A stretch of 64,000 nucleotides of DNA from Pseudomonas sp. R-28-1W-6 (GTDB lineage: Bacteria; Pseudomonadota; Gammaproteobacteria; Pseudomonadales; Pseudomonadaceae). Of this stretch, positions 21,116-32,400 are shown piece by piece; position 1 is the first letter of the stretch; each line of letters begins with the position of its first letter. The DNA lies in NCBI RefSeq assembly GCF_009799925.1, contig NZ_WELK01000004.1, forward strand, positions 248,001 to 312,000. Direction: 5' to 3'. Below the pieces are notes generated by a model. The model did not search any database. It was not told the DNA's origin and saw only the letters and a list, made by a program, of their open reading frames with translations. The translations under genes and the position numbers were made by a program.

Positions 21116-22750
21116 ATGCTGCGTTTCTTCGCCGATCTTGGTTTTCGCTGGAAGATTGCCCTGCCGATACTCCTGCTGGCGGTGCTGCTGGTGCTCATGG
21201 GGTTTCTGGGGATGCGTGGTATCAGCCAGGTGGCCGATTCCAGTACGCGCCTTAGCCATCGCTCCCTGCCGGCCATCAGCCTGCTGCTGAATGCCGATCG
21301 CGACCTGTACCAGGCATTCGTCGCCGAGCGCAGCCTGCTCGATGAGGGCGCTGGCGAGCATACGACCGCGCTGCGCGACGCCCATGCCGAGAATACCCAG
21401 CAGGCCTACGAGCGCGTGCACAAGTACGCCGAAATGCAGCCCAGCGCCGAGGCGCTCAAATTGGTGGCCGCTTTCGACCGTGACTTTAGCCAGTGGCAGG
21501 CGACCTCCAAGCGGGTTCTGCAGTTGCTGGCCAGTGATCCTGTCGCAGCCTCGGCGCTCAGCTATGGTGACAGCGAGGCGCAATTCGAAGCCATGCGCGA
21601 CTCGATCGACAAGCTGGGCGAACTGGAAGATGGTGCGGCCAATGCCGAAGGTGCCGCGGCGATTGCCCTGGGCGAGGAGCTGCGCTGGCAGCAGGGGCTG
21701 ACCATCGCCATCGGCCTGGCGGTCTGTGTCGTGCTGGTGCTGGGTTTCCCGATTCTGGTAACGCGTCCCTTGCACAACCTGTTGCAGCGCATCGAGCAGA
21801 TCGCCGACGGCGACGGCGACCTGCGGGTGCGCCTGGATGTGCTGTCGCGCGATGAACTGGGCAAGCTCAGCCATGCCTTCAACCGCTTCCTCGACAAGCT
21901 GCAGCCACTGATCAAGGAGGTCGGCCGGGTCACCGGCGAGGTGGCCGATTCGGCGCAGACCTTGGCCGGCATGGCTGCCGCCAATGACCGCCTGATCAGC
22001 AGCGAGCACGCGGCGGTGGATCAGGTCAGCACTGCGGCAACCGAGATGAGCAGTGCCGTGCATGAGGTGGCGCGCAATGCGCAGCATGCCGCGGATGCGG
22101 CGCGCTCGGCCGAAACCCAGTCACGTGAAGGGGCGCAAGTGGTCGGCGCGACCATCCATGCCATCCGCCAACTGGCCCATGAGGTGGAGAGTGCCTCCAG
22201 CACCATCCAGACCCTCGAACAGGAAACGGCCAACATCGGTGCCGTGCTTGCGGTGATCAAGGGCATTGCCGAGCAGACCAACCTGCTGGCCTTGAATGCG
22301 GCGATCGAGGCGGCCCGCGCGGGCGAGCAGGGGCGTGGCTTTGCCGTGGTCGCTGACGAGGTGCGGGCGCTGGCCGCGCGCACCCAGGACTCGACCAAGG
22401 ACATCCAGCAGATGATCGAGCGCCTGCAGATTGGCGTGCAGAATGCGGTCAAGGCCATGCACTCGGGCAGCGAGAAGGCCCGTGACAGTGTCGAGCGTGC
22501 CGCCGGTGTCGATGGCGCCTTGTCGGCCACCGGCGACTCGGTGGCGCGGATCAACGACATGGCGGCGCAGATCGCCACTGCCTGTGAGGAGCAGAGCAGC
22601 GTGACCGAGGAAATCGCGCGCAACATCAACGATATCCGCGACCTGTCCAATGAGGCGGCGCTGACCTCGGAGCAGAGCACCCAGGCCAGTGCGCGGCTGT
22701 CCGAGTTGTCCAACGGCCTGGCGCAACTGGTCGGACGTTTCCGGGTTTAG
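21116..22750 (+). CDS. Methyl-accepting chemotaxis protein
   Basis: This is a 544-residue chemoreceptor. Membrane segment 1 is at about residues 12-32, a periplasmic helical sensor domain at about 33-200, segment 2 at about 202-225 ([21 protein letters not shown]), then HAMP (about 226-280) and the cytoplasmic signalling domain with the hairpin tip [32 protein letters not shown]. There is no C-terminal CheR-tethering pentapeptide; it ends VGRFRV. The ATG is preceded by GGAG; the frame is open further upstream but without a comparable site. The ligand cannot be deduced. Confidence 0.92.
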
Positions 22751-22771
22751 CCCTCTAAGTGTTTGAAGCAG

Positions 22772-22799
22772 TTGTAAGTTTGTTCTTAACCAGTACAAT
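22772..22799 (+). promoter_or_regulatory. Sigma-70 promoter of ffs
   Basis: TTGTAA and TACAAT are separated by 16 bases. Transcription would start near 22806, at a small GC hairpin (GCCCGTC / GACGGGC) that would form the 5' leader removed from the 4.5S RNA precursor. Confidence 0.6.
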
Positions 22800-22829
22800 G
22801 GCGCGGCCCGTCGCCTGACGGGCTTCGTT

Positions 22830-22946
22830 ATGGTGGTTCCGTCGGTCCCCCCGCAACGATCAGCCGTGAACCCGGTCAGGCCCGGAAGGGAGCAGCCGCA
22901 GCGGTGACATCGTGTGCCGGGGTGTGGCTGGCGGGGCCGCCTCCAT
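22830..22946 (+). ncRNA. ffs: 4.5S RNA of the signal recognition particle
   Basis: The conserved SRP domain IV is present: GGTCAGGCCC-GGAA-GGGAGCAGCC, with the GGAA tetraloop and the asymmetric CAG/AGCAG loop that binds Ffh. The 5' strand (GGTGGTTCCGTCGGTCCC) can pair with the 3' strand (GGGGCCGCC), giving the usual single long hairpin of about 115 nt. A promoter and an intrinsic terminator flank it. The 3' part is duplicated at 30017-30096, marking an integration event; this left copy is the complete one. Confidence 0.92.
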
Positions 22947-22950
22947 AACC
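22871..22950 (+). repeat. Left attachment repeat (attL, 3' part of intact ffs)
   Basis: This is one of two 80-base copies of the ffs 3' region. It is contiguous with the ffs 5' half and promoter, so the RNA gene remains complete after integration. Confidence 0.8.
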
Positions 22951-22951
22951 T

Positions 22952-22978
22952 AAGTCTTTAATTCTAAAAGACTTTTTT
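22952..22978 (+). terminator. Intrinsic terminator of ffs
   Basis: An 8-bp stem (AAGTCTTT / AAAGACTT) with a 7-base loop is followed by a run of T. It lies just outside the left direct repeat, so it belongs to the island rather than to the ancestral locus; the ancestral terminator appears to be at 30094-30115. Confidence 0.85.
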
Positions 22979-23134
22979 CGCCAAAAATCGAAGAGTGGAA
23001 CAGCGTGTAGGTACACCTGAGTGGTGCGCCGTGCTGAGTATTCTAGTTGGCGGAATTTCCCCGTAACAAGCTCTCTCCTGTAGCGCATCAATGCCGGCGG
23101 CCTGCTGTCGATGCATGCTTATGCCTTTGAATGC

Positions 23135-23162
23135 TTGGTATTAGATCTGCTCGTTGTATAGT
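23135..23162 (+). promoter_or_regulatory. Candidate promoter of the AIPR gene
   Basis: TTGGTA and TATAGT with a 16-base spacer lie about 45 bases upstream of the proposed GTG start. The rest of the region from 22979 to 23208 shows no coding sequence that I can support. Confidence 0.45.
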
Positions 23163-23208
23163 GCCGTTCTAGTGGCGGTTGGCATATCACGAATCAAGGG
23201 GAAATGCG

Positions 23209-24876
23209 GTGTCTAAGCTTCATGTCACGCAAATCGGCGGTTACTTGAAGTCCGAGCTCTCGGCAGCGGTGAACATGGATGACTATGCCAAGCATCCAGA
23301 TCAGGATAAGGCTGAAAAGGCGTTTCTGACTCGGGCTCTCGGAGTGCTAGCGGTTTCCCAGCTTACTGATGTGCGGATGGAGGAGTTGTGTCCTTACATC
23401 ACCGATGGATTCAAGGATGGCGGCATAGATCTCATCTTCTTTGACGCGAAAGAGCGGACACTATATCTAGTCCAGACCAAATGGCACGCGGATGGTCATG
23501 GCAGCATCGATTTAGGGGATACCCTCAAGTTTCTTGAAGGTGTGCGCAAGGTTCTCGAAAACGATATCGATCAGTTAAATGATCGCATTAAATCTCGCAA
23601 GTTTGATATCGAGCGGGCGCTGTTCGACGCTAACGCCAAATTTTTGCTGGTGTTGGCTCATACAGGTCAAGAAGCTCTTGGCGCCGAGGTTGAGGCAGCA
23701 ATCAACGCTTATGTGGATTCTCAGAACGATACGTCCGAATTAATGTCGGTTCGAGTTCTTAACCAGCGAGACCTACATAAGGCGGTGGCCGCAGGCGTGG
23801 CTGGTGCTCCGATTTCCGTTGAGGTGCAACTCTCCTCTTGGGGGCAGATACGCGAGCCTCACCATGCGATTTATGGGCAAGTGTGTGCAGCGGACGTAGC
23901 TGTTTGGCTGGACAGTCATGGCCCAAGGCTTTTTGAGAGCAATCTAAGGCACTTTCTATCAGGCAGCTCCGTGAATCAAGATATTGTTAATACCTTGATT
24001 CAGCACCCCGAGGAGTTCTGGTACTACAACAACGGAGTCACGGCTGTGGCTACGGCGGTCGCCAAGAAGCCTATTGGCGGTAACTCTACAGAATCTGGGA
24101 TTTTCGAGTGCACGGGGTTCTGTGTTGTTAATGGAGCACAGACCGTGGGTTCAATCCATGCTGCGGCTGCACAGAATCCAGAAGCAGTTTCGAAGGCGAT
24201 GGTTTCTGTTCGCATCATTTCAAGTGCAAACAGCGAGAAAGGATTCTCTGCTGAGGTGACTCGATGCACTAACACGCAGAACGCTATTGAAAAGCGGGAC
24301 TTTGTTGCGCTGGATCCAGAGCAGGAGCGTATTCGGCAGGAGCTTCAAATTGAAGGCGTCGAGTACGCATACAAGGCCGGTGCAGCTTCAGGTGGTGTTG
24401 GGGACCGATTTGAGCTTACTGAAGCCACAGTTGCGCTTGCTTGCGCATATCACGATGTGGCGGTTGCAGTTCAAGCTAAGCGCGAGATCAGTAAGCTATG
24501 GGAAGACATCACTAAAGCGCCCTACAAGCAGCTGTTCAACACAGGTGTTACGGGACCCTCCGTCTGGCAGATGGTTAGGGTTTTGAGAGCAGTAGACTTT
24601 CACTTGCAGGTCGAATCTCAGAAATATACCGGGCGCGATGCTCTAGTGTGTGTTCATGGCAATCGATTTATACAGTGGGCGGTGCTCCGAGCTTTGGGGG
24701 TGAAGCCGGATACGCAGTTCAACGATGTTTCTGCCAAGGTGCCTCAGATGGTTGCAGAGACTGTTCGGAACTTGATTGCGAGCGTGAAAGCTAACTACTC
24801 AGACTCCTATCCTGCCAGCCTTTTCAAGAATCTCGGGAAGTGTAGGGTGCTGGCTAAAGAGTTTCGTCCTGAATAG
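23209..24876 (+). CDS. AIPR (abortive infection phage resistance) family protein with nuclease-like N-terminus
   Basis: This is a protein of about 555 residues. I recognise the AIPR family from the central part, including the NNGVTAV and NGAQTVGSIH segments near residues 280 and 312. The first 120 residues contain DGGIDLIFFD ... LYLVQTKWH, which fits the D...QxK core of PD-(D/E)xK (Mrr-like) nucleases. A GTG start is chosen because AAGGGGAA sits just before it; the frame is open 10 codons further. AIPR proteins are linked to abortive phage defence. It is the only rightward gene of the island and has its own promoter and terminator. A defence role is inference from the family and island context. 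Confidence 0.82.
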   Translation: MSKLHVTQIGGYLKSELSAAVNMDDYAKHPDQDKAEKAFLTRALGVLAVSQLTDVRMEELCPYITDGFKDGGIDLIFFDAKERTLYLVQTKWHADGHGSIDLGDTLKFLEGVRKVLENDIDQLNDRIKSRKFDIERALFDANAKFLLVLAHTGQEALGAEVEAAINAYVDSQNDTSELMSVRVLNQRDLHKAVAAGVAGAPISVEVQLSSWGQIREPHHAIYGQVCAADVAVWLDSHGPRLFESNLRHFLSGSSVNQDIVNTLIQHPEEFWYYNNGVTAVATAVAKKPIGGNSTESGIFECTGFCVVNGAQTVGSIHAAAAQNPEAVSKAMVSVRIISSANSEKGFSAEVTRCTNTQNAIEKRDFVALDPEQERIRQELQIEGVEYAYKAGAASGGVGDRFELTEATVALACAYHDVAVAVQAKREISKLWEDITKAPYKQLFNTGVTGPSVWQMVRVLRAVDFHLQVESQKYTGRDALVCVHGNRFIQWAVLRALGVKPDTQFNDVSAKVPQMVAETVRNLIASVKANYSDSYPASLFKNLGKCRVLAKEFRPE

Positions 24877-24893
24877 AGGACTATCCGAGCGAC

Positions 24894-24923
24894 TTAGCAC
24901 AGGAGCAGGGGGGGCTGTGCTGA
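24894..24923. terminator. Hairpin after the AIPR gene
   Basis: An inverted repeat AGCACAG / CTGTGCT with a G-rich loop lies 19 bases after the stop codon. No strong T-tract follows, so it is only a probable terminator. Confidence 0.4.
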
Positions 24924-25026
24924 GCGCTAGCTTCTGCCAAATATCGTCAGCACTAACCGAGTAAGAGGACGCTACAGAGGCTTTATAATCGTAATCACAG
25001 CTGGTTGTGGATGTCCCCTGTGAACG

Positions 25027-25596
25027 TCAAACCTGAGCGTTCCAGAGGCGCTTAACAGTGCTCAAACTAATGTCCAGCTCCTTGGCTACAGCAGACTGGC
25101 TCAGACCATTAGCCTTGTGAGTCTGCACCGCCTCCACACTGGTAGCAGCAGGGCGACCGAGTGTCTTCCCCTCACTCTTGGCACGGCTCAGGCCGGCTTG
25201 GGTGCGCTCGATCAGCAAGTCACGTTCGAACTGAGCAACAGCAGCTAATACACCCATGGTCATTTTGCCGGCTGCACTGGTCAGGTCTACGCCACCCAAG
25301 GCGAGGCAGTGAACCCGGATGCCTTTACCTTCCAGCATCTGCACAGTGCTTTGCACATCAATGGCGTTACGGCCAAGGCGGTCTAGTTTGGTAACGACCA
25401 GTAGGTCACCAGACTCCATACGATCAAGCAGCAGGTTGAAGCCTTTACGTTCGCTGGCACTGGTGCTGCCAGATATGGTTTCTTCAATGACTCGCTGAGG
25501 CTGAATGTCGAAGCCTGCAGCTTTCACTTCCTGCACTTGGTTTTGGGTGTGCTGGTCAGCAGTGCTGCAGCGTGCATACAGGAAGGTGCGTGACAT
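25027..25596 (-). CDS. Serine recombinase (resolvase/invertase family)
   Basis: This is a 189-residue protein with a complete resolvase N-terminal domain: YARCSTADQHTQNQ with the nucleophilic serine at about residue 11, then VTKLDRLGRNAIDV and AQFERDLLIERTQAGL. A C-terminal helix-turn-helix follows (about 150-187, SQSAVAKELDISLSTVKRLW), as in Tn3-type resolvases and DNA invertases. It is leftward-facing and convergent with the AIPR gene. Possible res-like half-sites lie upstream. It may be a relic of a transposon captured by the island, or the island's own dimer-resolution enzyme. Confidence 0.93.
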   Translation of the reverse strand: MSRTFLYARCSTADQHTQNQVQEVKAAGFDIQPQRVIEETISGSTSASERKGFNLLLDRMESGDLLVVTKLDRLGRNAIDVQSTVQMLEGKGIRVHCLALGGVDLTSAAGKMTMGVLAAVAQFERDLLIERTQAGLSRAKSEGKTLGRPAATSVEAVQTHKANGLSQSAVAKELDISLSTVKRLWNAQV

Positions 25597-25911
25597 TGTG
25601 AGGGCTCCAGATGGGTGTCAATAACGTGGTGTCATTATAGGTGTTGGGTTCATAAGTTCAACCTCTATTTTGTGATACCAGTGATCGGCACTAGGTAGAG
25701 TGGGTTCACAAACGCTCGTTTATGACACGTGGGGGATGTGGTGCTGAGCCGACTGAAAGAACAGGGTTAGGAAGGGGTTTGCTTAGCTGTAGGGCTCGAA
25801 GCCCTCGGTTTCACTGGGCTGGCCAGATGAGGGCAGGGTCAGATTGTTCTTCCGGTGTCTGTAATTCCCCTGTTCCAGCTTGTTTTCTGATGCGCGTAGC
25901 TCAGTGGATAA
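25597..25911. other. Non-coding region upstream of the recombinase gene
   Basis: It contains three TGTCA-type half-sites (around 25615, 25630 and, inverted, 25721-25728) that could form a res site. It also has a perfect hairpin AGGGCT-CGA-AGCCCT (25791-25805). No convincing gene is present; open frames here have no start context. Confidence 0.35.
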
Positions 25912-25951
25912 GGGATACCAATCCTAAAAAGCTTCTTAGGAAAGGTATCCC
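25912..25951. terminator. Long hairpin at the end of the helicase-like gene
   Basis: An outer 8-bp stem (GGGATACC / GGTATCCC) and an inner 5-bp stem (CCTAA / TTAGG) are separated by A-rich internal loops. The outer arm ends 9 bases downstream of the helicase stop (leftward), a position suiting a terminator. It is embedded in a tRNA-like context, described in the findings. Confidence 0.45.
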
Positions 25952-25959
25952 CCTGTGCA

Positions 25960-27399
25960 TCAAGCAGCATCAACCCCGTCACGCCATCGGCGGATGGTTT
26001 TGGCCGTGACATTGCTAAGCCGAGCAATGCTTTTGATTGCCACTCCATCCTCTAAGAGGCGATTAACCATCTCGCGTTGAGGGTGCTCTGCCCTGCGACC
26101 ATCTGGCTTGACTGGCATCAGTTTGGATAGCGACCAGTCAATCTCTGCATCAGGCAGGTAGGTCTGAACCAGATACTGTGCAACACGCTCATCTTGCACG
26201 AATAGCCGTATATGCTCCGTGTTGCCTTTGCAGCGGATAGCGGTTCGAGTCACCGCTTGCAGTGAGGGCTCCAGCAGTCGAGTCGTTACGAACGCCGCAC
26301 GGAAGTCCTCGCCGTACTGCTCTCGAAGAAACTCTAATCCCAGAGCATCCGCCGGGCTGGGGTTACCCCCAAAAAGCAGAATGGCTTCAGTTGCTGTGTC
26401 GTAGCTATTAAGTCCACGGCAGTCCTTGGGGACATACTGAACATTGCGGGTGCGCTCAAGACCAGCCCACTTGGATGCAAAGAGTAGTGGCCTCGTTTGG
26501 GTTTGCTCTAGGGTGGTTCGCAGGACCAAATCGATTAGCCGCTCATTGCCATGCCTTGTCAGCATTCTCGCCCGACTAAAGGTTTGCCCCTTTGGCATCA
26601 GCGGATAAATGGTGACGGTGCTCGTGTATCTGCTCTGTTCGGGTGTAAACATCGAGTCGCAGAATGTGAAGCCATGGGCATGTGCAAGCTTCTCAAACTC
26701 ACTCCCGGCAACGTTGGCAGCCAGCACATGTACTTCATCGCTGGTCGCGAAGATTTTCCACCAATCCAAGTGTTCTTCCACGGCGCGGATGTGGCGCTTA
26801 CCGTTCTCTTGAGGCTGGTCAATGAACACGTCTACGCCACACAGCAGCAGCCGGAAAATGTGGGCTGCTGAAGAGCCAAGTGTGGAGCAGTCTGTGCCGG
26901 ATGCATCTGCGCGGTTAGTAGTGATTTGATCTCGAACCGCTTCATCAAGGCCGTCCTTGATCCAGAGCTGACCACTTCGCTCCTCTGTGTAGTCGAGCAC
27001 ACGCTCCAGTTCTATCGGCTTGAGTGAGTAGTCCGGGTAGTCCACGACCTTAGGTAGCTCATCGACAATGAGCATCCAGCCCCGAAACAAGGAGGGGTGT
27101 ACACGCCGGATAGCTTCCTGAGTGCAGATGAGAAACGAGTCTTGCTTGAGTCGAAGAGCTGCTGTCAGTTCTGGGGCTACGAGTTCACCACTGCGATGGT
27201 CGATGGTGCGAGGAGTAATCCCCATCGCTGATGCGCGCTTGGTGATGGCATCACTCAGAACGATGGTTGGTAGTGCAAGGACGATGCGTTTCCCCTCAGC
27301 AACAAGGAAGGGGATTTGGGTCAGAAGCGCTTCTGTTTTTCCAGCTCCGGGCTGGGCGATGGCGGTGTGAATGGGTTTGATACGGGTAACATTTGTCAT
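25960..27399 (-). CDS. Helicase-like P-loop ATPase with C-terminal helix-turn-helix
   Basis: This is a 479-residue protein when started at the ATG preceded by AAGGAGGACTTC, a very strong ribosome site. Walker A is AQPGAGKTEALL (about 15-26). IVLALPTIVLS resembles helicase motif Ia, and Walker B MLIVDELPKVV (about 110-120) resembles a DEAH box with DELP. The C-terminal 45 residues form a helix-turn-helix (MVNRLLEDGVAIKSIARLSNVTAKTIRRW). It resembles SF2-type helicase/replication proteins of small mobile elements more than chromosomal helicases. I do not recognise a named family. Confidence 0.7.
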   Translation of the reverse strand: MTNVTRIKPIHTAIAQPGAGKTEALLTQIPFLVAEGKRIVLALPTIVLSDAITKRASAMGITPRTIDHRSGELVAPELTAALRLKQDSFLICTQEAIRRVHPSLFRGWMLIVDELPKVVDYPDYSLKPIELERVLDYTEERSGQLWIKDGLDEAVRDQITTNRADASGTDCSTLGSSAAHIFRLLLCGVDVFIDQPQENGKRHIRAVEEHLDWWKIFATSDEVHVLAANVAGSEFEKLAHAHGFTFCDSMFTPEQSRYTSTVTIYPLMPKGQTFSRARMLTRHGNERLIDLVLRTTLEQTQTRPLLFASKWAGLERTRNVQYVPKDCRGLNSYDTATEAILLFGGNPSPADALGLEFLREQYGEDFRAAFVTTRLLEPSLQAVTRTAIRCKGNTEHIRLFVQDERVAQYLVQTYLPDAEIDWSLSKLMPVKPDGRRAEHPQREMVNRLLEDGVAIKSIARLSNVTAKTIRRWRDGVDAA

Positions 27400-27443
27400 G
27401 AAGTCCTCCTTCAGTTTCAGTTCATAAGCATTTCCTCTGGAAA

Positions 27444-27466
27444 GCCGCGAGCGGTTTACTCGCGGC
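27444..27466 (-). terminator. Hairpin between the AP2-like and helicase-like genes
   Basis: A perfect 8-bp stem GCCGCGAG / CTCGCGGC with a 7-base loop, followed leftward by CTTTCC, lies 10 bases after the upstream gene's stop. It could terminate or attenuate transcription into the helicase-like gene. Confidence 0.4.
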
Positions 27467-27475
27467 ACATTCAAG

Positions 27476-28177
27476 TCAGTCTCTGATGTGAGCTGATAGC
27501 CGTCGAAGAGCATCGACAGCTTGTGGGGCGATCAATCCATCGAAAAGCTGGGCAAGCTCCAGCCCGTACTTTTGACGCGCTTGCTTGTAGGCATCAAAAG
27601 CCTCGTGGATGCAGTAAAAACGCCCAAGTGGCTGCGATTTCCCATATTTCGAAATGGCTGCTACGAAACCTACCTTGCTCGGGTGCTCACTGACGCCTAT
27701 AGGGAGTTTTCCTCGGATTTTTCGTGAGTCTTTGAAGATCAGGTTGACGAGCTTAGGTACGACGCAGCAGTACTCTGGTGAGTAAACGGTGTTCAGTGGG
27801 TCAATGATGTCCTTGTCTAGCTCTGCATCAGGCATTCCTGCATAAGGCTGCGAGACATGCCAAGCTGCAAACTCTTGGTAGTCGTGCCACTTCAGGCAAA
27901 CACGGACCCCTTGATAGGTTGGGGCCGTGGATGAGTAGGCGCGCTGCATCATGTTGTGCCAAGTCTTATATGGCGTGCCTTTCCCTGCTTTGACGTAGGG
28001 CATGCCCATGGCTTTACGCCGGCTACCAGAGTTGTAGCCAACACCATAGGTAAGAGGCTTATCTGCAGTAGGTCCAAAGAGTGGAAGCTCTTCACCGAGA
28101 CTGTAGTCAAGGTGGAGTCCGGCTACGCAAGGCGCTACGTAAATGGTTCGAGGGGTGGTGCTGCTGTGTTGGTGCAT
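27476..28177 (-). CDS. Phage-type AP2-like DNA-binding protein
   Basis: This is a 233-residue protein. The middle (YKTWHNMMQRAY ... GVRVCLKWHDYQEFAAW) matches a layout common in phage-encoded proteins annotated near HNH endonucleases. The C-terminal part (GVSEHPSKVGFVAAI ... LGRFYCIHEAFDAYKQA) looks like an AP2 DNA-binding domain. I see no complete HNH catalytic motif. The ATG has a GGAGG ribosome site 9 bases upstream. It precedes the helicase-like gene on the same strand. Relation to homing endonucleases is inference. Confidence 0.65.
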   Translation of the reverse strand: MHQHSSTTPRTIYVAPCVAGLHLDYSLGEELPLFGPTADKPLTYGVGYNSGSRRKAMGMPYVKAGKGTPYKTWHNMMQRAYSSTAPTYQGVRVCLKWHDYQEFAAWHVSQPYAGMPDAELDKDIIDPLNTVYSPEYCCVVPKLVNLIFKDSRKIRGKLPIGVSEHPSKVGFVAAISKYGKSQPLGRFYCIHEAFDAYKQARQKYGLELAQLFDGLIAPQAVDALRRLSAHIRD

Positions 28178-28210
28178 TGTTGTTACCTCCGTGCTGTTGA
28201 AAAAAAGGCG

Positions 28211-28233
28211 AAAAAAACCGACACAGTGGTCGG
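28211..28233 (-). terminator. Intrinsic terminator upstream of the AP2-like gene
   Basis: Read leftward, the stem CCGAC / GTCGG is followed by seven T residues. It lies between a promoter candidate (28478-28507) and the AP2-like start (28177), so it would end or attenuate the leader transcript. Confidence 0.7.
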
Positions 28234-28470
28234 CATTGGGCTCGTCATTCTTCTCGCTGCGGAGTAGGGGACTTAGCTATTCGATGTCGTTGACCTCAGT
28301 GTTGGTGTTGCTTCGATTGCGTATGTCATGTGATTTCTCATGATCTGCGTTGACCGTCAGGTGGTGGTCAGCCAAAAGGTAGGCACTAAAAAGCCTCCTG
28401 CGATTTTCGGTCGATTTGTCGAACCGTAGTCGCGTAGAGGCTTCCAAGTTGTATGTCTGCTTACTGGGCA
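28234..28470 (-). ncRNA. Candidate structured leader or small RNA of the island
   Basis: About 240 bases lie between a promoter-like sequence and an intrinsic terminator, with no substantial gene. The sequence can form a hairpin CGGTTCGA-CAAA-TCGACCG and a longer-range pairing AAGCCTC / GAGGCTT. A GTG preceded by AGGAGG could start a 9-codon peptide (PTFWLTTT after the start). It could be an attenuator leader for the AP2-like/helicase genes or an independent RNA. Confidence 0.3.
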
Positions 28471-28477
28471 GATTCGT

Positions 28478-28520
28478 ATATTCTCACAATGGCTGACCGG
28501 CTGTCAAGTACTTGTTGACA
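28478..28520 (-). promoter_or_regulatory. Candidate leftward promoter with operator-like palindrome
   Basis: On the minus strand TTGACA (28502-28507) and GAATAT (28478-28483) are 18 bases apart. The -35 element is part of the inverted repeat TGTCAA-N7-TTGACA (28502-28520), which also contains the palindrome CAAGTACTTG. This could be a repressor site controlling the leftward genes. Confidence 0.45.
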
Positions 28521-28544
28521 GGGCCGGGTGAAGGTGTTTAGGCG

Positions 28545-29873
28545 TCATGTAACGTGCCTCAATGCTTCTGCCATCGCTCTGATTGGTGTCCTGCTGCCGT
28601 AGACGCTGAATGTAACGGAGCTTTCTTCATGGCCCGCCATCCGTTTAATCAGCGAGTCTTGGACGCCAGCCTCCCTCAGTTCATCGATGAAGGTGTGACG
28701 AAAGCTATGGAAGGTTTTGCGTGGGTCGCTGATTCCTTGTTTCGCCTTGTAGCGACTGAACCATTTTGATGGAGCATGACCAAGCTTTCCCCTTGTCGGG
28801 ACAAGATCGGGAAAGAGTCTGGAGTAATTTTTATCCCCGATGGATTCGGCATGCTCAAGTAGACCAAGCTCCAGCAGTTTGGGGTGAATAGGAAGCACCC
28901 GGCGGCTGCTCTGATTCTTGAGTTTTTGGTCACTATGCCTGTCATCGATACGAATGCACGGGATGCCTTGATAGCTAGTGATGTCATCGATGTGCAATTG
29001 GCAAAGCTCCTCTAAACGGGCGCCAGTGAAACGGGCGAGGAGGGGTAGCCAGTACCGCCATGGATGCTTTCGTGCCTCATGGGCCAGTGCGTCATGTTTG
29101 AGCAAGGCGTCGAGGTCAAACGGCTCAAGGGAGAGGCGAGCCTCTTTTGCAGCACCAGCCATCACTTTCATTCCCGCTAGCGGGTTTTGTCCGATGTAGC
29201 CGTTTGCCTTGCACCAGTTGAAGAAGGCCGTCAACTTCCGTAGCCGGTTGTTGATCGTTACGGCAGTGATGGTCTGGTAGGGCATGGACGAGTTTACGAC
29301 TTGCCGCAGTGTCATTCCCTTGAACTCGGTTCGCTGAGCGAAGTACTGCGGGCACCGTGCCAAGCGTTCCTTGAGGGTGCGAGCTTGTTCGACTCCGAAG
29401 GCAGAGGCAGGCATGTCGTCCATCAGTTCGAAGAAGTCCCGCAAGGCACGTTCCACGTCCAGAGCACTGACCGTTCGCCAAGCGCCGCTCCGAGTCCCTT
29501 CATCTATGTAGAGCTTCGCCAGACTTGCCAGCGTTGGGCCCTCCGCTACGGTGCTGATCGACTTGGTTGAAGTCTTTGCAGTGCTAACTGTGATCGTGGG
29601 AATTGACGTTTTGGTTCGCCATTCCGTACACAAGGCGAGGAGCTTCCGAGGTTCAATAAGGGGGTGGCTGCTGATGTGCTCGTGTACTCGACGAGCAAGC
29701 TCAGATGCGATGAATACGGCGGTTTTACGGTCCCTGACACTGAGACTCAAACGGAGAGTGGTACGGTCGGGATAGAGGTGCTTAGGCAGCCGTAAGTTCA
29801 GGTAGTACACGGCTCCGCGTCGAGTGATGTAAGTCAAAGTGGTACACCAGAGTGGTACAGCAAAGTGGAACAA
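28545..29873 (-). CDS. Tyrosine recombinase / integrase of the ffs island
   Basis: This is a 442-residue phage-type integrase. The N-terminal 100 residues form an arm-binding region (TYITRRGAVYYLNLRLPKHLY), followed by a core-binding SAM-like domain (about 125-240) and the catalytic domain with Arg in FTGARLEELCQL, HSFRHTF (His-x-x-Arg) and the nucleophile Tyr in FSVYGSRTP. It lies at the right end of the island, about 140 bases from the right ffs repeat, the usual place for an integrase next to its att site. The start may lie a few codons downstream. It ends about 40 bases from the leftward promoter candidate. Confidence 0.92.
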   Translation of the reverse strand: MFHFAVPLWCTTLTYITRRGAVYYLNLRLPKHLYPDRTTLRLSLSVRDRKTAVFIASELARRVHEHISSHPLIEPRKLLALCTEWRTKTSIPTITVSTAKTSTKSISTVAEGPTLASLAKLYIDEGTRSGAWRTVSALDVERALRDFFELMDDMPASAFGVEQARTLKERLARCPQYFAQRTEFKGMTLRQVVNSSMPYQTITAVTINNRLRKLTAFFNWCKANGYIGQNPLAGMKVMAGAAKEARLSLEPFDLDALLKHDALAHEARKHPWRYWLPLLARFTGARLEELCQLHIDDITSYQGIPCIRIDDRHSDQKLKNQSSRRVLPIHPKLLELGLLEHAESIGDKNYSRLFPDLVPTRGKLGHAPSKWFSRYKAKQGISDPRKTFHSFRHTFIDELREAGVQDSLIKRMAGHEESSVTFSVYGSRTPIRAMAEALRHVT

Positions 29874-30016
29874 TGCTGGTCACACCCCAGATTTTTGGCC
29901 TTGGCTCAGGCGTACTCGCCCGTTCGAAATGAATGTTGGCGAATCACCCATCAACCCCCCACCAGCCCAGACGCAGTGCAGCTTTCAGCAAACTGCGAGG
30001 AGTGCTTGCACTCCAC

Positions 30017-30096
30017 CCCGGTCAGGTCCGGAAGGAAGCAGCCACAGCGGGAACATCGTGTGCCGGGGTGTGGCTGGTGGGACCGCCTCCATAACC
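30017..30096 (+). repeat. Right attachment repeat (attR, truncated ffs 3' part)
   Basis: This is an 80-base copy of the ffs 3' region carrying the SRP loop (GTCCGGAAGGAAGCAG). Upstream of it there is no matching 5' strand, so it cannot fold into a full 4.5S RNA. It differs from the left copy at seven positions, two of which keep a base pair (C-G versus T-A) in the apical stem. Confidence 0.8.
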
Positions 30097-30115
30097 CGCT
30101 CCGGGTTGTCTGTTT
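30094..30115 (+). terminator. Displaced original ffs terminator
   Basis: A 6-bp stem AACCCG-CTC-CGGGTT is followed by GTCTGTTTT. It directly follows the right ffs repeat and is most simply the terminator that served ffs before the island inserted. Confidence 0.55.
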
Positions 30116-30312
30116 TCCGAAATCTTCCCCTTCGTCTTATCTGCTGCTCATGGCCTGGCCTGGCAGGGCGAAAGCACGCCTCTTTCACGCTCCTTGCGGC
30201 GCCGGCCCTCGTCCGTGGCAGTTCCAGGCCGGCCAATCCGCCGGCGCGGATGCAATTTACCCGGTGCTCCGCTAGGATTAGCCCCTCTGTTATCCAGACG
30301 CGACGGTTTTCG

Positions 30313-32400
30313 ATGAGTTATCAGGTTCTTGCACGTAAATGGCGTCCGCGCTCGTTCCGCGAAATGGTCGGCCAGACCCATGTGCTCAAGGCCCTGATCA
30401 ATGCCCTGGACAGCCAGCGCCTGCACCATGCGTACCTGTTCACCGGCACCCGCGGGGTGGGCAAGACCACCATCGCGCGGATCATCGCCAAGTGCCTGAA
30501 CTGCGAGACCGGCATCAGCTCCACGCCGTGCGGTGAGTGTTCGGTGTGCCGCGAGATCGACGAGGGCCGCTTCGTCGACCTGATCGAAGTCGACGCCGCC
30601 AGCCGCACCAAGGTCGAGGACACCCGCGAACTGCTGGAAAACGTGCAGTACGCGCCGAGCCGCGGGCGTTACAAGGTCTACCTGATCGACGAAGTGCACA
30701 TGCTCTCCACGCACTCGTTCAACGCGCTGCTCAAGACCCTCGAAGAGCCGCCACCCCACGTCAAGTTCCTGCTGGCCACCACCGACCCGCAGAAACTGCC
30801 GGTCACCATTCTCTCCCGTTGCCTGCAGTTCTCCCTGAAGAACATGCCGCCGGAGCGGGTGGTCGAGCACCTGACCCATGTATTGACCGCCGAGAGCGTG
30901 CCGTTCGAGGACGACGCCCTGTGGCTGCTCGGCCGTGCCGCCGATGGTTCGATGCGCGATGCCATGAGCCTGACCGACCAGGCCATCGCCTTTGGCGAGG
31001 GCAAGGTGCTGGCCGCCGATGTGCGCGCGATGCTCGGCACCCTCGACCACGGTCAGGTCTACGGCGTGCTGCATGCGCTGCTCGAAGGCGATGCGCGGGC
31101 GCTGCTCGAGGCCGTGCGCCATCTGGCCGAGCAAGGCCCGGACTGGAACGGCGTGCTCTCCGAGATGCTCAACGTGCTGCACCGGGTGGCGGTGGCCCAG
31201 GCCCTGCCCGAAGCGGTGGACAACGGCCAGGGGGATCGCGACAAGGTCCTGGCGCTGGCCCAGGCCTTGCCAGCCGAGGATGTGCAGTTCTACTACCAGA
31301 TGGGCCTGATCGGCCGCCGCGACCTGCCGCTGGCGCCGGACCCGCGCAGCGGTTTCGAGATGGTCCTGCTGCGCATGTTGGCGTTCCGCCCGGCGGATGC
31401 CGACGGGGCGCCCCGCTCACCTTTAAAGGATCTGGGAATCAGCAAGGCCACAGCTGATTCCACGACCAACCCAGTGGCCGGCGCAGCCCTTGCTGCCCAG
31501 CCGGCTTCTATCGCATCCCCCGTCGTTGCCGCGCCCGTAGTTCCGGCTCCGCCTCCTGTCGTCGCGCCGGTTGCTGCGGTCGAGTCGGTGCCTGCCCCGG
31601 TTGCGCCGGCAGCGGTGCCGGCGGCTACCCTTGCGGCGGCTCCGGCCAGCGTGCCGAGCGTGGTCGCAGCACCGGTTGTCGACCTGCCCTGGGAGGCGGC
31701 GAGCCCGTCCGCGTTGGCAGTTGCCGAGCCCGTGCTGGCGCCGCTTGCCAGCGAGCCTGCGGTGATCGAGGCGGCTCCGGCGCTGCAATCGGTTGTTGCC
31801 GAAGCCGAGCCGCCGGCTGTTGCCGCTGTACCGGCTCCGCCCGCCGTGGTGCCAGCCGTTGCGCAAGCCGAGGAGGGCGATGACGACGAACCGCCGCCCG
31901 GCGACTACGACTATGCCGAAGTGGATGGCGACAGCCTCGACTACGACTTCGACGTGTCGGCCGCCGAGCCGCAAGCCGAGCCCGAGCCGTTGCCGGCCGC
32001 CAAGCCGGCCACCGGCCTGGCCGCCGAGTGGCTGGACCTGTTCCCGCACCTGGGCCTGTCCGGTATGACCGGCAGCATCGGCGCCAACTGCACCTTGATC
32101 GAAGCCGATGGCGACGCCTGGCTGCTACACCTGGACCCGGGCCACAGCGCGCTGTTCAATGCCACCCAGCAACGTCGTCTGAATGACGCGCTGAACCAGC
32201 ACCTGGGGCGTAACATCGAGCTGCGCATCGAGCTGATCCTGCCCGAGCAGGAGACTCCGGCCCAGGCTGCTGCGCGCAAGCGCGCCGAGCGCCAGCGCCT
32301 GGCCGAGCAGTCGATTCAGGACGACCCGCTGGTGCAGCAGATGATTCAACAATTCGGAGCGGTGATCCGCGCCGAGTCCATCGAACCCCTGACCCATTAA
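30313..32400 (+). CDS. dnaX: DNA polymerase III tau/gamma subunit
   Basis: This 695-residue clamp-loader ATPase starts MSYQVLARKWRPRSF. Walker A is GTRGVGKTT (about 44-52), a zinc site of four cysteines follows (CLNCETG ... CGECSVC), and the SRC motif lies in ILSRCLQFSLK. A Pro/Ala/Val-rich linker (about 375-515) and an acidic stretch (DDDEPPPGDYDYAEVD) precede the tau C-terminal domain that binds the polymerase. I see no A-rich slippery heptamer like that of E. coli. ybaB and recR follow, as is standard. Confidence 0.96.
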   Translation: MSYQVLARKWRPRSFREMVGQTHVLKALINALDSQRLHHAYLFTGTRGVGKTTIARIIAKCLNCETGISSTPCGECSVCREIDEGRFVDLIEVDAASRTKVEDTRELLENVQYAPSRGRYKVYLIDEVHMLSTHSFNALLKTLEEPPPHVKFLLATTDPQKLPVTILSRCLQFSLKNMPPERVVEHLTHVLTAESVPFEDDALWLLGRAADGSMRDAMSLTDQAIAFGEGKVLAADVRAMLGTLDHGQVYGVLHALLEGDARALLEAVRHLAEQGPDWNGVLSEMLNVLHRVAVAQALPEAVDNGQGDRDKVLALAQALPAEDVQFYYQMGLIGRRDLPLAPDPRSGFEMVLLRMLAFRPADADGAPRSPLKDLGISKATADSTTNPVAGAALAAQPASIASPVVAAPVVPAPPPVVAPVAAVESVPAPVAPAAVPAATLAAAPASVPSVVAAPVVDLPWEAASPSALAVAEPVLAPLASEPAVIEAAPALQSVVAEAEPPAVAAVPAPPAVVPAVAQAEEGDDDEPPPGDYDYAEVDGDSLDYDFDVSAAEPQAEPEPLPAAKPATGLAAEWLDLFPHLGLSGMTGSIGANCTLIEADGDAWLLHLDPGHSALFNATQQRRLNDALNQHLGRNIELRIELILPEQETPAQAAARKRAERQRLAEQSIQDDPLVQQMIQQFGAVIRAESIEPLTH

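Follow-up and report, generated by a model that had tools for sequence, protein, structure and literature searches.

The window analysed here, 64,000 nucleotides of a contig of Pseudomonas sp. R-28-1W-6 (NZ_WELK01000004.1), contains a compact block of five genes between ffs, which encodes the essential protein-targeting RNA of the signal recognition particle (SRP), and dnaX. The combined evidence indicates that this block is very probably an integrative island that inserted site-specifically at ffs. Genome comparison shows that the island fills an ffs-dnaX interval that is empty in the nearest relative and that its integrase end has moved between species. As far as sequence can tell, mobility through site-specific recombination is well supported.

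The borders are marked by two direct copies of 80 nt (22871-22950 and 30017-30096) that are 91% identical (73/80) and lie 7146 bp apart, a spacing that we infer to be the size of the mobile unit; the next longest direct repeat listed within 21500-32000 measures 40 nt. Rfam recognizes one complete bacterial small SRP RNA, the left copy (gathering threshold 40 bits). The right copy yields nothing above the Rfam threshold and a weak SRP-type match of 27.9 bits in a permissive scan, and ARAGORN found no tmRNA in the window. GC content per 500-bp step is 50-59% within the element as against 61-73% in the flanking 3-5 kb on each side; farther left, single steps drop to 56%. Five long open reading frames (ORFs) lie inside: an AIPR gene on the plus strand and, all on the minus strand, genes for a serine recombinase, a helicase with a helix-turn-helix (HTH), an AP2/HNH-like protein and a DUF6538 integrase. 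In Pfam, the integrase matches Phage_integrase (PF00589, E 3.7e-15) and DUF6538 (PF20172). Its residues R286, H389, R392, H415 and Y425, which we take to be the catalytic set of tyrosine integrases (R, H-x-x-R, H/W, Y), are invariant across 13 sequences. The initial annotation had described five atypical genes integrated at ffs, with a tyrosine integrase at one end and two 80-base copies of the ffs 3' region around them; its repeat coordinates are right, and Rfam, Pfam and the low GC content agree with the rest.

Close relatives show the site before insertion, as the initial annotation had anticipated. In the nearest relative by dnaX (G118; genomes and loci are referred to by G and L numbers), the MCP gene is followed by a single ffs, 214 nt and dnaX, and nothing else; MCP is 93.3% identical over residues 208-585 and dnaX 97.7% over residues 1-388. 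G054 is also empty, with MCP at 90.3%, one ffs, and dnaX (96.8%) about 137 nt on. In turn, a genome of another species, G346, carries the right part of the element at the same chromosomal place. DNA identity between the window and G346 is 92.3% in the AP2 part, 96.5% in the gap between AP2 gene and integrase, 98.1% in the integrase, 97.2% from there to the right copy and 97.5% in the right copy itself. Beyond the right copy it is 66.8% in the gap before dnaX and 86.8% in dnaX, and on the left side 84.1% in MCP, 89.0% in the left ffs and 68.3% at the left end. An element that is closer than its surrounding chromosome, with an edge at the repeat, argues for horizontal transfer with site-specific insertion. 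The features of the island are as follows.

22840-22936, plus strand: ffs (4.5S SRP RNA), complete left copy, taken as attL (RF00169, 76.5 bits; empty-site comparison)
22907-22931, plus strand: 25-bp segment identical in both copies, inferred left crossover interval (left/right differences, ffs alleles of relatives)
22952-22978, plus strand: hairpin and T-run at the left end of the element (read from the sequence; similar motif at other left ends)
22994-23002, plus strand: left arm-type site AGTGGAACA, putative integrase binding (four matches in 64 kb, all at island ends)
23179-24876, plus strand: AIPR protein, AbiU/MzaE-like cargo (PF10592, PADLOC AbiU, phrog_1841)
25027-25596, minus strand: small serine recombinase, resolvase/invertase family (PF00239; in 21/21 complete family members)
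25611-25729, minus strand: res-like site, tentatively read as three subsites with the crossover subsite distal to the gene (block conserved in 11 islands and plasmid pMPC6-4K)
25960-27513, minus strand: DinG/XPD-like superfamily 2 (SF2) helicase with C-terminal HTH (AlphaFold model, Foldseek, VIA, alignment)
27476-28177, minus strand: AP2/HNH-family-like protein (phrog_953, 3.4e-48)
28545-29873, minus strand: DUF6538-type tyrosine integrase (PF00589, PF20172; residues invariant in 13 sequences)
29838-29872, plus strand: three right arm-type sites AGTGGWACA, 13-bp spacing (motif scan)
29999-30014, plus strand: palindrome GGAGTGC-TT-GCACTCC adjoining the right core (comparison of right copies)
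30017-30096, plus strand: right ffs-like copy, taken as attR (repeat; G346 and empty-site comparison)
30053-30077, plus strand: inferred right crossover interval (left/right differences, allele comparison)

Attachment sites and crossover

Each end of the island would be a composite. Specifically, attL would be host-derived as far as the crossover and element-supplied past it, and attR would be element-derived up to the core and host-derived beyond. The hairpin and T-run at 22952-22978 are likely a terminator that the element supplies to ffs. The motif AGTGGWACA occurs four times in the window, always at an island end (22994; 29838, 29851 and 29864), a count reached by 0/100 shuffles. Its shorter form GTGGWAC was counted in 21 complete islands, defined by the presence of both ffs copies (duplicates from the G set and L109, whose copies are cut by contig ends, are omitted): the 420 bp at the right end hold 28 matches (3.17 per kb), the 260 bp at the left end 4 (0.73 per kb) and the remainder 33 (0.17 per kb). 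These motifs fit putative arm-type integrase sites.

The crossover can be placed from ffs alleles, two of which occur in the clade. The window's left copy is of the G054 type (3/97 differences). It departs at 12 positions from the allele of G118 and G346, which is the one that the right copy matches in its upstream part. Between the nearest mismatches on either side of the stretch common to both copies lies 22907-22931 = 30053-30077, which these alleles suggest as the crossover interval. The left ffs may be a natural second allele, carried in nearly the same form by G054. The idea that the whole left ffs was imported with the island is weakened, as G054 has nearly the same allele at an empty site in the same clade. 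Among close relatives (window 22840-22936, L214, L224), the two alleles differ at 11-12/97 positions, with compensating stem changes by reading; exchange of the whole SRP RNA gene may take place in the genus.

Across the family, the element's own copy resembles that of its host. In 23 attL/attR pairs (the 21 complete islands plus the remnants in G024 and G346), a 34-nt segment upstream of and including the core start is the same in left and right copy in 16 cases, with a mean of 0.78 differences within an island versus 3.66 between islands; none of 10,000 permutations matches this. On the integrase tree, the right-copy allele needs at least 16 changes among 39 rows (300 shuffles: mean 24.1, lowest 20); allele labels were available for 39 of 41 rows, the tree carries a long-branch warning that includes the window's branch, and the integrase of L095 has a stop within its stretch. 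As judged from these sequences, the right-copy allele follows the integrase lineage somewhat, not closely, and follows the host closely. Related integrases sit in hosts with different ffs alleles, yet the element's copy tends toward the host allele. The pattern suggests gene conversion by the resident ffs, which would also explain right copies with more native ffs at the hairpin place (L009, L097, L010-L012, L084); circulation within host groups would explain part of the match.

A hairpin beside the right core recurs in the family. The palindrome GCATGC-TT/TG-GCATGC is present in 26 of 42 distinct right copies, and 8 of the 42 have no such hairpin. The palindromes of the window and of L076 (GCATCC-GT-GGATGC) differ in letters yet pair, so that pairing can survive sequence change. 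A role of the right copy as a decoy SRP RNA was considered and dropped: its SRP-type match is weak, and the copies of L015 and L107 lack the SRP loop. Its fold is no better than that of shuffles (z -0.49), in a test that is weak, as the real ffs itself reaches z -1.07.

The island family at ffs

A sample of 149 genus genomes, the island's own included, contains 13 relatives of the integrase with at least 44% identity over most of its length; the next such match has 31%, and better identity is found in pieces alone (G024, 58% over a 68-residue fragment). Two further genomes reach 44% over about 150 residues. In each of the 13 relatives, an ffs-like copy and the start of the integrase are about 100-210 bp apart, and two ffs-like copies (E <= 1e-10) occur in 14/14 integrase-positive versus 4/135 integrase-negative genomes. 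Among these four negatives, G024, G130 and G139 carry partial copies 2.5, 2.0 and 1.1 kb away, in G024 with an integrase fragment, and are probably remnants of such islands; in G130 (C187:622-2688) and G139 (C1:128817-129995), a full ffs and the partial copy stand without a close integrase. The second match of G050 lies on a different contig (77%). The initial annotation had named two ffs copies without the five genes as evidence against an island. Such cases do occur, in G346, G024, G130 and G139, with copies 1.1-2.6 kb apart; they are read as remnants because the copies are near each other and, in G346 and G024, an integrase or a fragment of one lies between them. More than two ffs-like matches were found in 0/149 genomes, so there are no tandem arrays in this sample.

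On a wider scale, the integrase matches at E <= 1e-90 in 31/398 genus genomes, own included; on this count the five genes are not core in the genus, which the initial annotation had named as a possible refutation. Of 293 genomes drawn from the order, the own genome alone matches at E <= 1e-60. A scan of named genomes, whose contig set overlaps the G set (e.g. L085 and G089), gave at least 80 integrase loci. Among the loci listed, 38 have at least 53% identity in the best segment, and 36 of these have an ffs-like copy beside the integrase; the two exceptions, L114 and L153, matched part of the integrase only. Titles assign 35 of the 36 to Pseudomonas and one to a Moraxellaceae metagenome-assembled genome contig. 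These comparisons show an integrase clade, almost all from Pseudomonas, that adjoins an ffs copy in every full-length case examined. The same kind of integrase thus occurs at ffs in other strains with different cargo, as had been foreseen. Measured from one ffs position to its equivalent, the 21 complete islands range from 6.6 kb (L096) to 16.6 kb (L072); coordinates give about 19.5 kb for G087, 19.8 kb for G129 and 72 kb for G057. The last of these (L067/L188), of the window's integrase type (type A), has its second ffs copy about 72 kb away and holds ORFs that by eye resemble MerR and transposition genes.

Two more integrase lineages sit at ffs, types B and C, with 31-38% identity. Islands of type B (L125, L127, L128, L131, L138; 31-32%) measure about 7-10 kb and have a full-length ffs gene on either side; their integrase comes after the upstream ffs, and a resolvase lies near the far end. 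Wherever a type B locus has its two ends within the contig (five loci), both ffs copies are full-length. In type C (L133, L139, L145, L147, L148, L151, L156; 33-38%), from Pseudomonas and Stutzerimonas, ffs lies about 400-720 bp before the integrase. Among 23 genomes with one ffs-like match (L158-L180, from G001-G023; Ns split that of G007), the ffs-dnaX interval measures about 1-15 kb in 21, and dnaX was not met within the stretch in the other two; by reading of the sequence, a terminator like those at island left ends comes after four of these ffs genes. Old, decayed or unrelated islands seem common in this interval.

Resolvase, replication protein and cargo

The serine recombinase matches Resolvase (PF00239, E 4.4e-36, over threshold), with a C-terminal HTH_7 at 23.7 bits against a threshold of 23.8. 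Its motif ARCST, read from the sequence, is presumably the catalytic-serine motif. Such a gene is present in all 21 complete islands, between left cargo and right backbone, and lies on the integrase strand in 20 of them. By this comparison the resolvase is a conserved backbone gene of the family; the initial annotation had listed it as one gene among five. In L094 and L098 the resolvase gene runs in the opposite direction, possibly after inversion. The counts come from a hidden Markov model trained iteratively on the same ORFs, and the control used the trained model: type B loci longer than 6 kb have a match in 7/7 cases, and the short type B contig L124 has none. Of 43 loci (42 and the window), five gave no match, none of them complete: L076 is decayed, L101 and L102 are short pieces, and the left ends of L088 and L104 were not seen.

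Upstream of the resolvase, a region of about 120 bp is conserved in 11 islands with the window-type enzyme, the window included. It carries GATACC/GGTATC half-sites in an arrangement that may comprise three subsites. The window's copy (25611-25729) is recognizable and diverged. The interval 25597-25740 holds just 3 half-sites at up to one mismatch, or 20.8 per kb, against an overall density in the window of 1.58 per kb. A resolvase that is 72.7% identical, with the same res-like region, is encoded on pMPC6-4K (NZ_CP034780), a free 4.3-kb plasmid that has its own replication gene. In several of the 45 best island pairs, the resolvase and about 125-155 bp upstream form a discrete block of about 660-760 bp, shared although the DNA around it is dissimilar; longer blocks are shared by L066/L099 (956 bp) and L071/L097 (1.7 kb).

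These blocks raise the question whether the resolvase is the cargo-exchange machine of the family. In such a scheme, an island would leave ffs rebuilt, a second island would dock beside the first, and recombination between the two res-like sites would fuse the cargo-and-resolvase half of one with the backbone-and-integrase half of the other, deleting the rest. If true, defence modules would shuffle while the docking machinery stays constant. The modular limits fit this idea, namely the discrete resolvase blocks, the pair L070/L071, in which the resolvase block and, right of it, two long blocks are shared with nothing detectable to the left (blastn, plus strand, E 1e-10), and the window and G346, 98% identical on the right and 68% on the left. 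Against it, no tandem array appears in the 149 genomes, and the block limits may reflect selection rather than crossover; on balance the proposal is improbable.

The helicase-like protein of 517 residues has weak DEAD-like and HTH matches in Pfam, and by sequence the PDB offers no useful relative (two matches near E 0.45). Its AlphaFold model has a mean pLDDT of 80.5. Residues 1-43 score under 50; because they model as disordered and relatives begin later, the start is likely at 27399. Fold comparisons, which cover residues 44-466, point to DinG and XPD: Foldseek gives 2vl7 (E 4.8e-11, TM by query 0.48) and TM by query of 0.43-0.50 for the XPD/DinG rows among the first 12, and VIA gives DinG 8s36_M (Z 18.9, 3.9 A over 315 residues), its first 15 rows being DinG, XPD or TFIIH-complex chains. 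The predicted model thereby has the fold of a DinG/XPD-like SF2 helicase. Distant relatives, presumably T4-like, occur in 228 phage records, with 24-27% identity in the 20 records listed, and none in 72,556 plasmid records, which argues against a plain plasmid origin of the gene. In its place, two other islands carry a RepL-like protein (in L066 the match, E 1.2e-4, passes the family cut-off; in L082, at 0.0019, it does not), and the helicase-HTH protein may act in replication. The neighbouring protein, called AP2-like in the initial annotation, has no Pfam match at 0.01; it matches phrog_953 (3.4e-48), a phage HNH-endonuclease family, over the C-terminal half of the profile (residues 195-388 of 420).

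The cargo of the window would be a single AIPR protein, probably anti-phage: it matches PF10592 (E 3.8e-38), PADLOC AbiU (2e-28) and phrog_1841 (9.6e-82) and is similar to MzaE. Comparison shows that left cargo varies between islands, and it is rich in anti-phage genes. Pfam, run on 30 of 54 left-cargo proteins, identified a DncV-like nucleotidyltransferase, a reverse transcriptase (RT)-trypsin fusion, and ABC-3C, KAP NTPase, SIR2, DprA-like and HSDR_N domains; for 12 of the 30, no family was assigned at E 0.001. PADLOC, run on all 54, gave Hachiman, RT-protease, a CBASS-type cyclase and effector, and ShosA among the 25 listed of 217 families.

Mechanism, alternatives and known systems

The available data are compatible with a model in which the integrase, bound to arm sites at either end, recombines attP with ffs inside ACATCGTGTGCCGGGGTGTGGCTGG. 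As the element would bring the 3' part of ffs together with a terminator, the left end would keep an intact SRP RNA. Once excised, the element would form a circle of 7146 bp, with the helicase-HTH protein acting in its replication. Dimers or tandem copies would be resolved to monomers by the resolvase and its res-like site, as happens on plasmids, and the AIPR protein would be cargo, probably for defence. As no transfer gene was found, the island would move by a helper (phage or conjugative element) or by natural DNA uptake.

Several observations weigh against this model. The full element has been seen just once: G346 shares the right third only and has another left end (68%), its version being a 2.6-kb remnant without AIPR, resolvase and helicase. 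Compared with the ffs of G118, the left copy is changed at 12/97 positions spread over its whole length, not just 3' of the inferred core. GTGGWAC is absent from both ends in 8/21 complete islands and is not general in that form. A resolvase lies near 8/27 related integrases without a detected ffs and in 2/7 type C loci. The idea that the resolvase is exclusive to ffs islands was rejected on the former count; it is a feature of a wider kind of island, not of ffs alone.

One alternative is a phage satellite (like P4, phage-inducible chromosomal islands (PICI) or phage-inducible chromosomal island-like elements (PLE)) packaged by a helper phage, with AIPR as a gene for helper interference or defence. 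Size, integrase and defence cargo fit, as do the helicase with phage relatives and the HNH/AP2 phage family match, and one Pseudomonas tmRNA-site island with integrase, defence cargo and no transfer genes is described as transduced by a jumbo phage (PMC12595487). Against this, neither PHROG nor Pfam detects a capsid, terminase, AlpA or primase family in the five ORFs, or any capsid-redirection, packaging or helper-interference family as in P4, PICI, cfPICI or PLE satellites, although undescribed families would escape. Furthermore, just 11 of 50,697 phage records match the integrase, none above 41% identity or covering 80% (66 plasmid records match, none covering 80%), the resolvase is of plasmid type, and relatives carry RepL-like proteins. 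A satellite is unlikely. The initial annotation had called the element satellite-like with a defence cargo. Defence-type cargo is borne out in the family; the satellite likeness is not supported, because the resolvase and res-like site are shared with a plasmid and RepL-like proteins occur in relatives. The phage links consist of PHROG matches, which also come from integrases, recombinases and defence genes, and of a helicase whose phage relatives are distant.

An integrative mobilisable element or cis-mobilisable island, which would lack a relaxase of its own and rely on a conjugative element acting at an origin of transfer (oriT), is doubtful to the same degree. It would account for clear spread between species without transfer genes, but Pfam finds no relaxase or coupling protein among the five ORFs, and oriT was not searched for. 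A conjugative element proper is rejected for want of any relaxase or other such Pfam match there, in line with the initial annotation. Equally improbable is a decayed island, no longer mobile, whose two copies are fossils. The copies differ at 7/80 positions, and remnants are known: in G024 an integrase fragment accompanies copies 2.5 kb apart, in G346 the distance is 2.6 kb, and G130 and G139 are probable cases. In the window, in contrast, all five ORFs are open and show their catalytic motifs, neither the arm sites nor the 25-bp core is disrupted, and another species carries the integrase end at 98% identity. Finally, chance duplication of the ffs 3' end beside unrelated strain-specific genes is extremely improbable, as nothing speaks for it except the repeat itself, the paired copies track the integrase across genomes and the site is empty in a relative.

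For the integrative island at ffs, the target itself is already in print (PMC8637289, PMC6299553), in agreement with the initial annotation, which had called SRP RNA a known one. A 19.8-kb blaVIM-2 island of P. aeruginosa is described as flanked by identical srpRNAs (PMC6299553). It shares with the window the genus and the bracketing SRP RNA copies and, compared by description only, differs in its drug-resistance cargo; its "identical" copies would fit type B, with whole-gene duplicates, better than the window's type. Pneumococcal PPH015 prophages are reported to integrate in ffs (PMC8637289) and share this target; by description only, they differ as Streptococcus prophages with a 22-bp core. 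The Pseudomonas tmRNA-site islands I23, I44 and I55, of which I55 is transduced by a jumbo phage, also combine a small-RNA-gene target, a tyrosine integrase and defence cargo without transfer genes; they differ in the tmRNA target, a 14-bp repeat and AlpA, and the word resolvase is absent from the main text that describes them (PMC12595487). The window, unlike the I55 type, uses ffs and has no AlpA family among its five ORFs. The plasmid pMPC6-4K resembles it in the resolvase and the upstream res-like layout and differs as a free replicon, with no integrase among its three annotated genes. P4 and PICI phage satellites are small, integrative and often carry defence cargo; unlike them, the window shows no packaging, interference or AlpA family.

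A search of the open-licence PMC literature yielded no account of the ffs island family, of its arm sites or of ffs islands with a resolvase, which is weak evidence of absence. Relative to the known systems, the putative arm sites at both ends, the resolvase in all 21 complete members, the res-like site found also on a plasmid and the right-core hairpin in most members are new here. Taken together, they describe an island family with a fixed dock (ffs), two recombinases that recur together (a tyrosine integrase and a serine resolvase) and an exchangeable cargo rich in defence genes. The dock offers a simple route to undescribed defence genes through the contents between ffs and resolvase, and the two-recombinase design makes cargo swapping by defence islands testable. 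The family also presents an essential RNA gene whose 3' part would come from mobile DNA.

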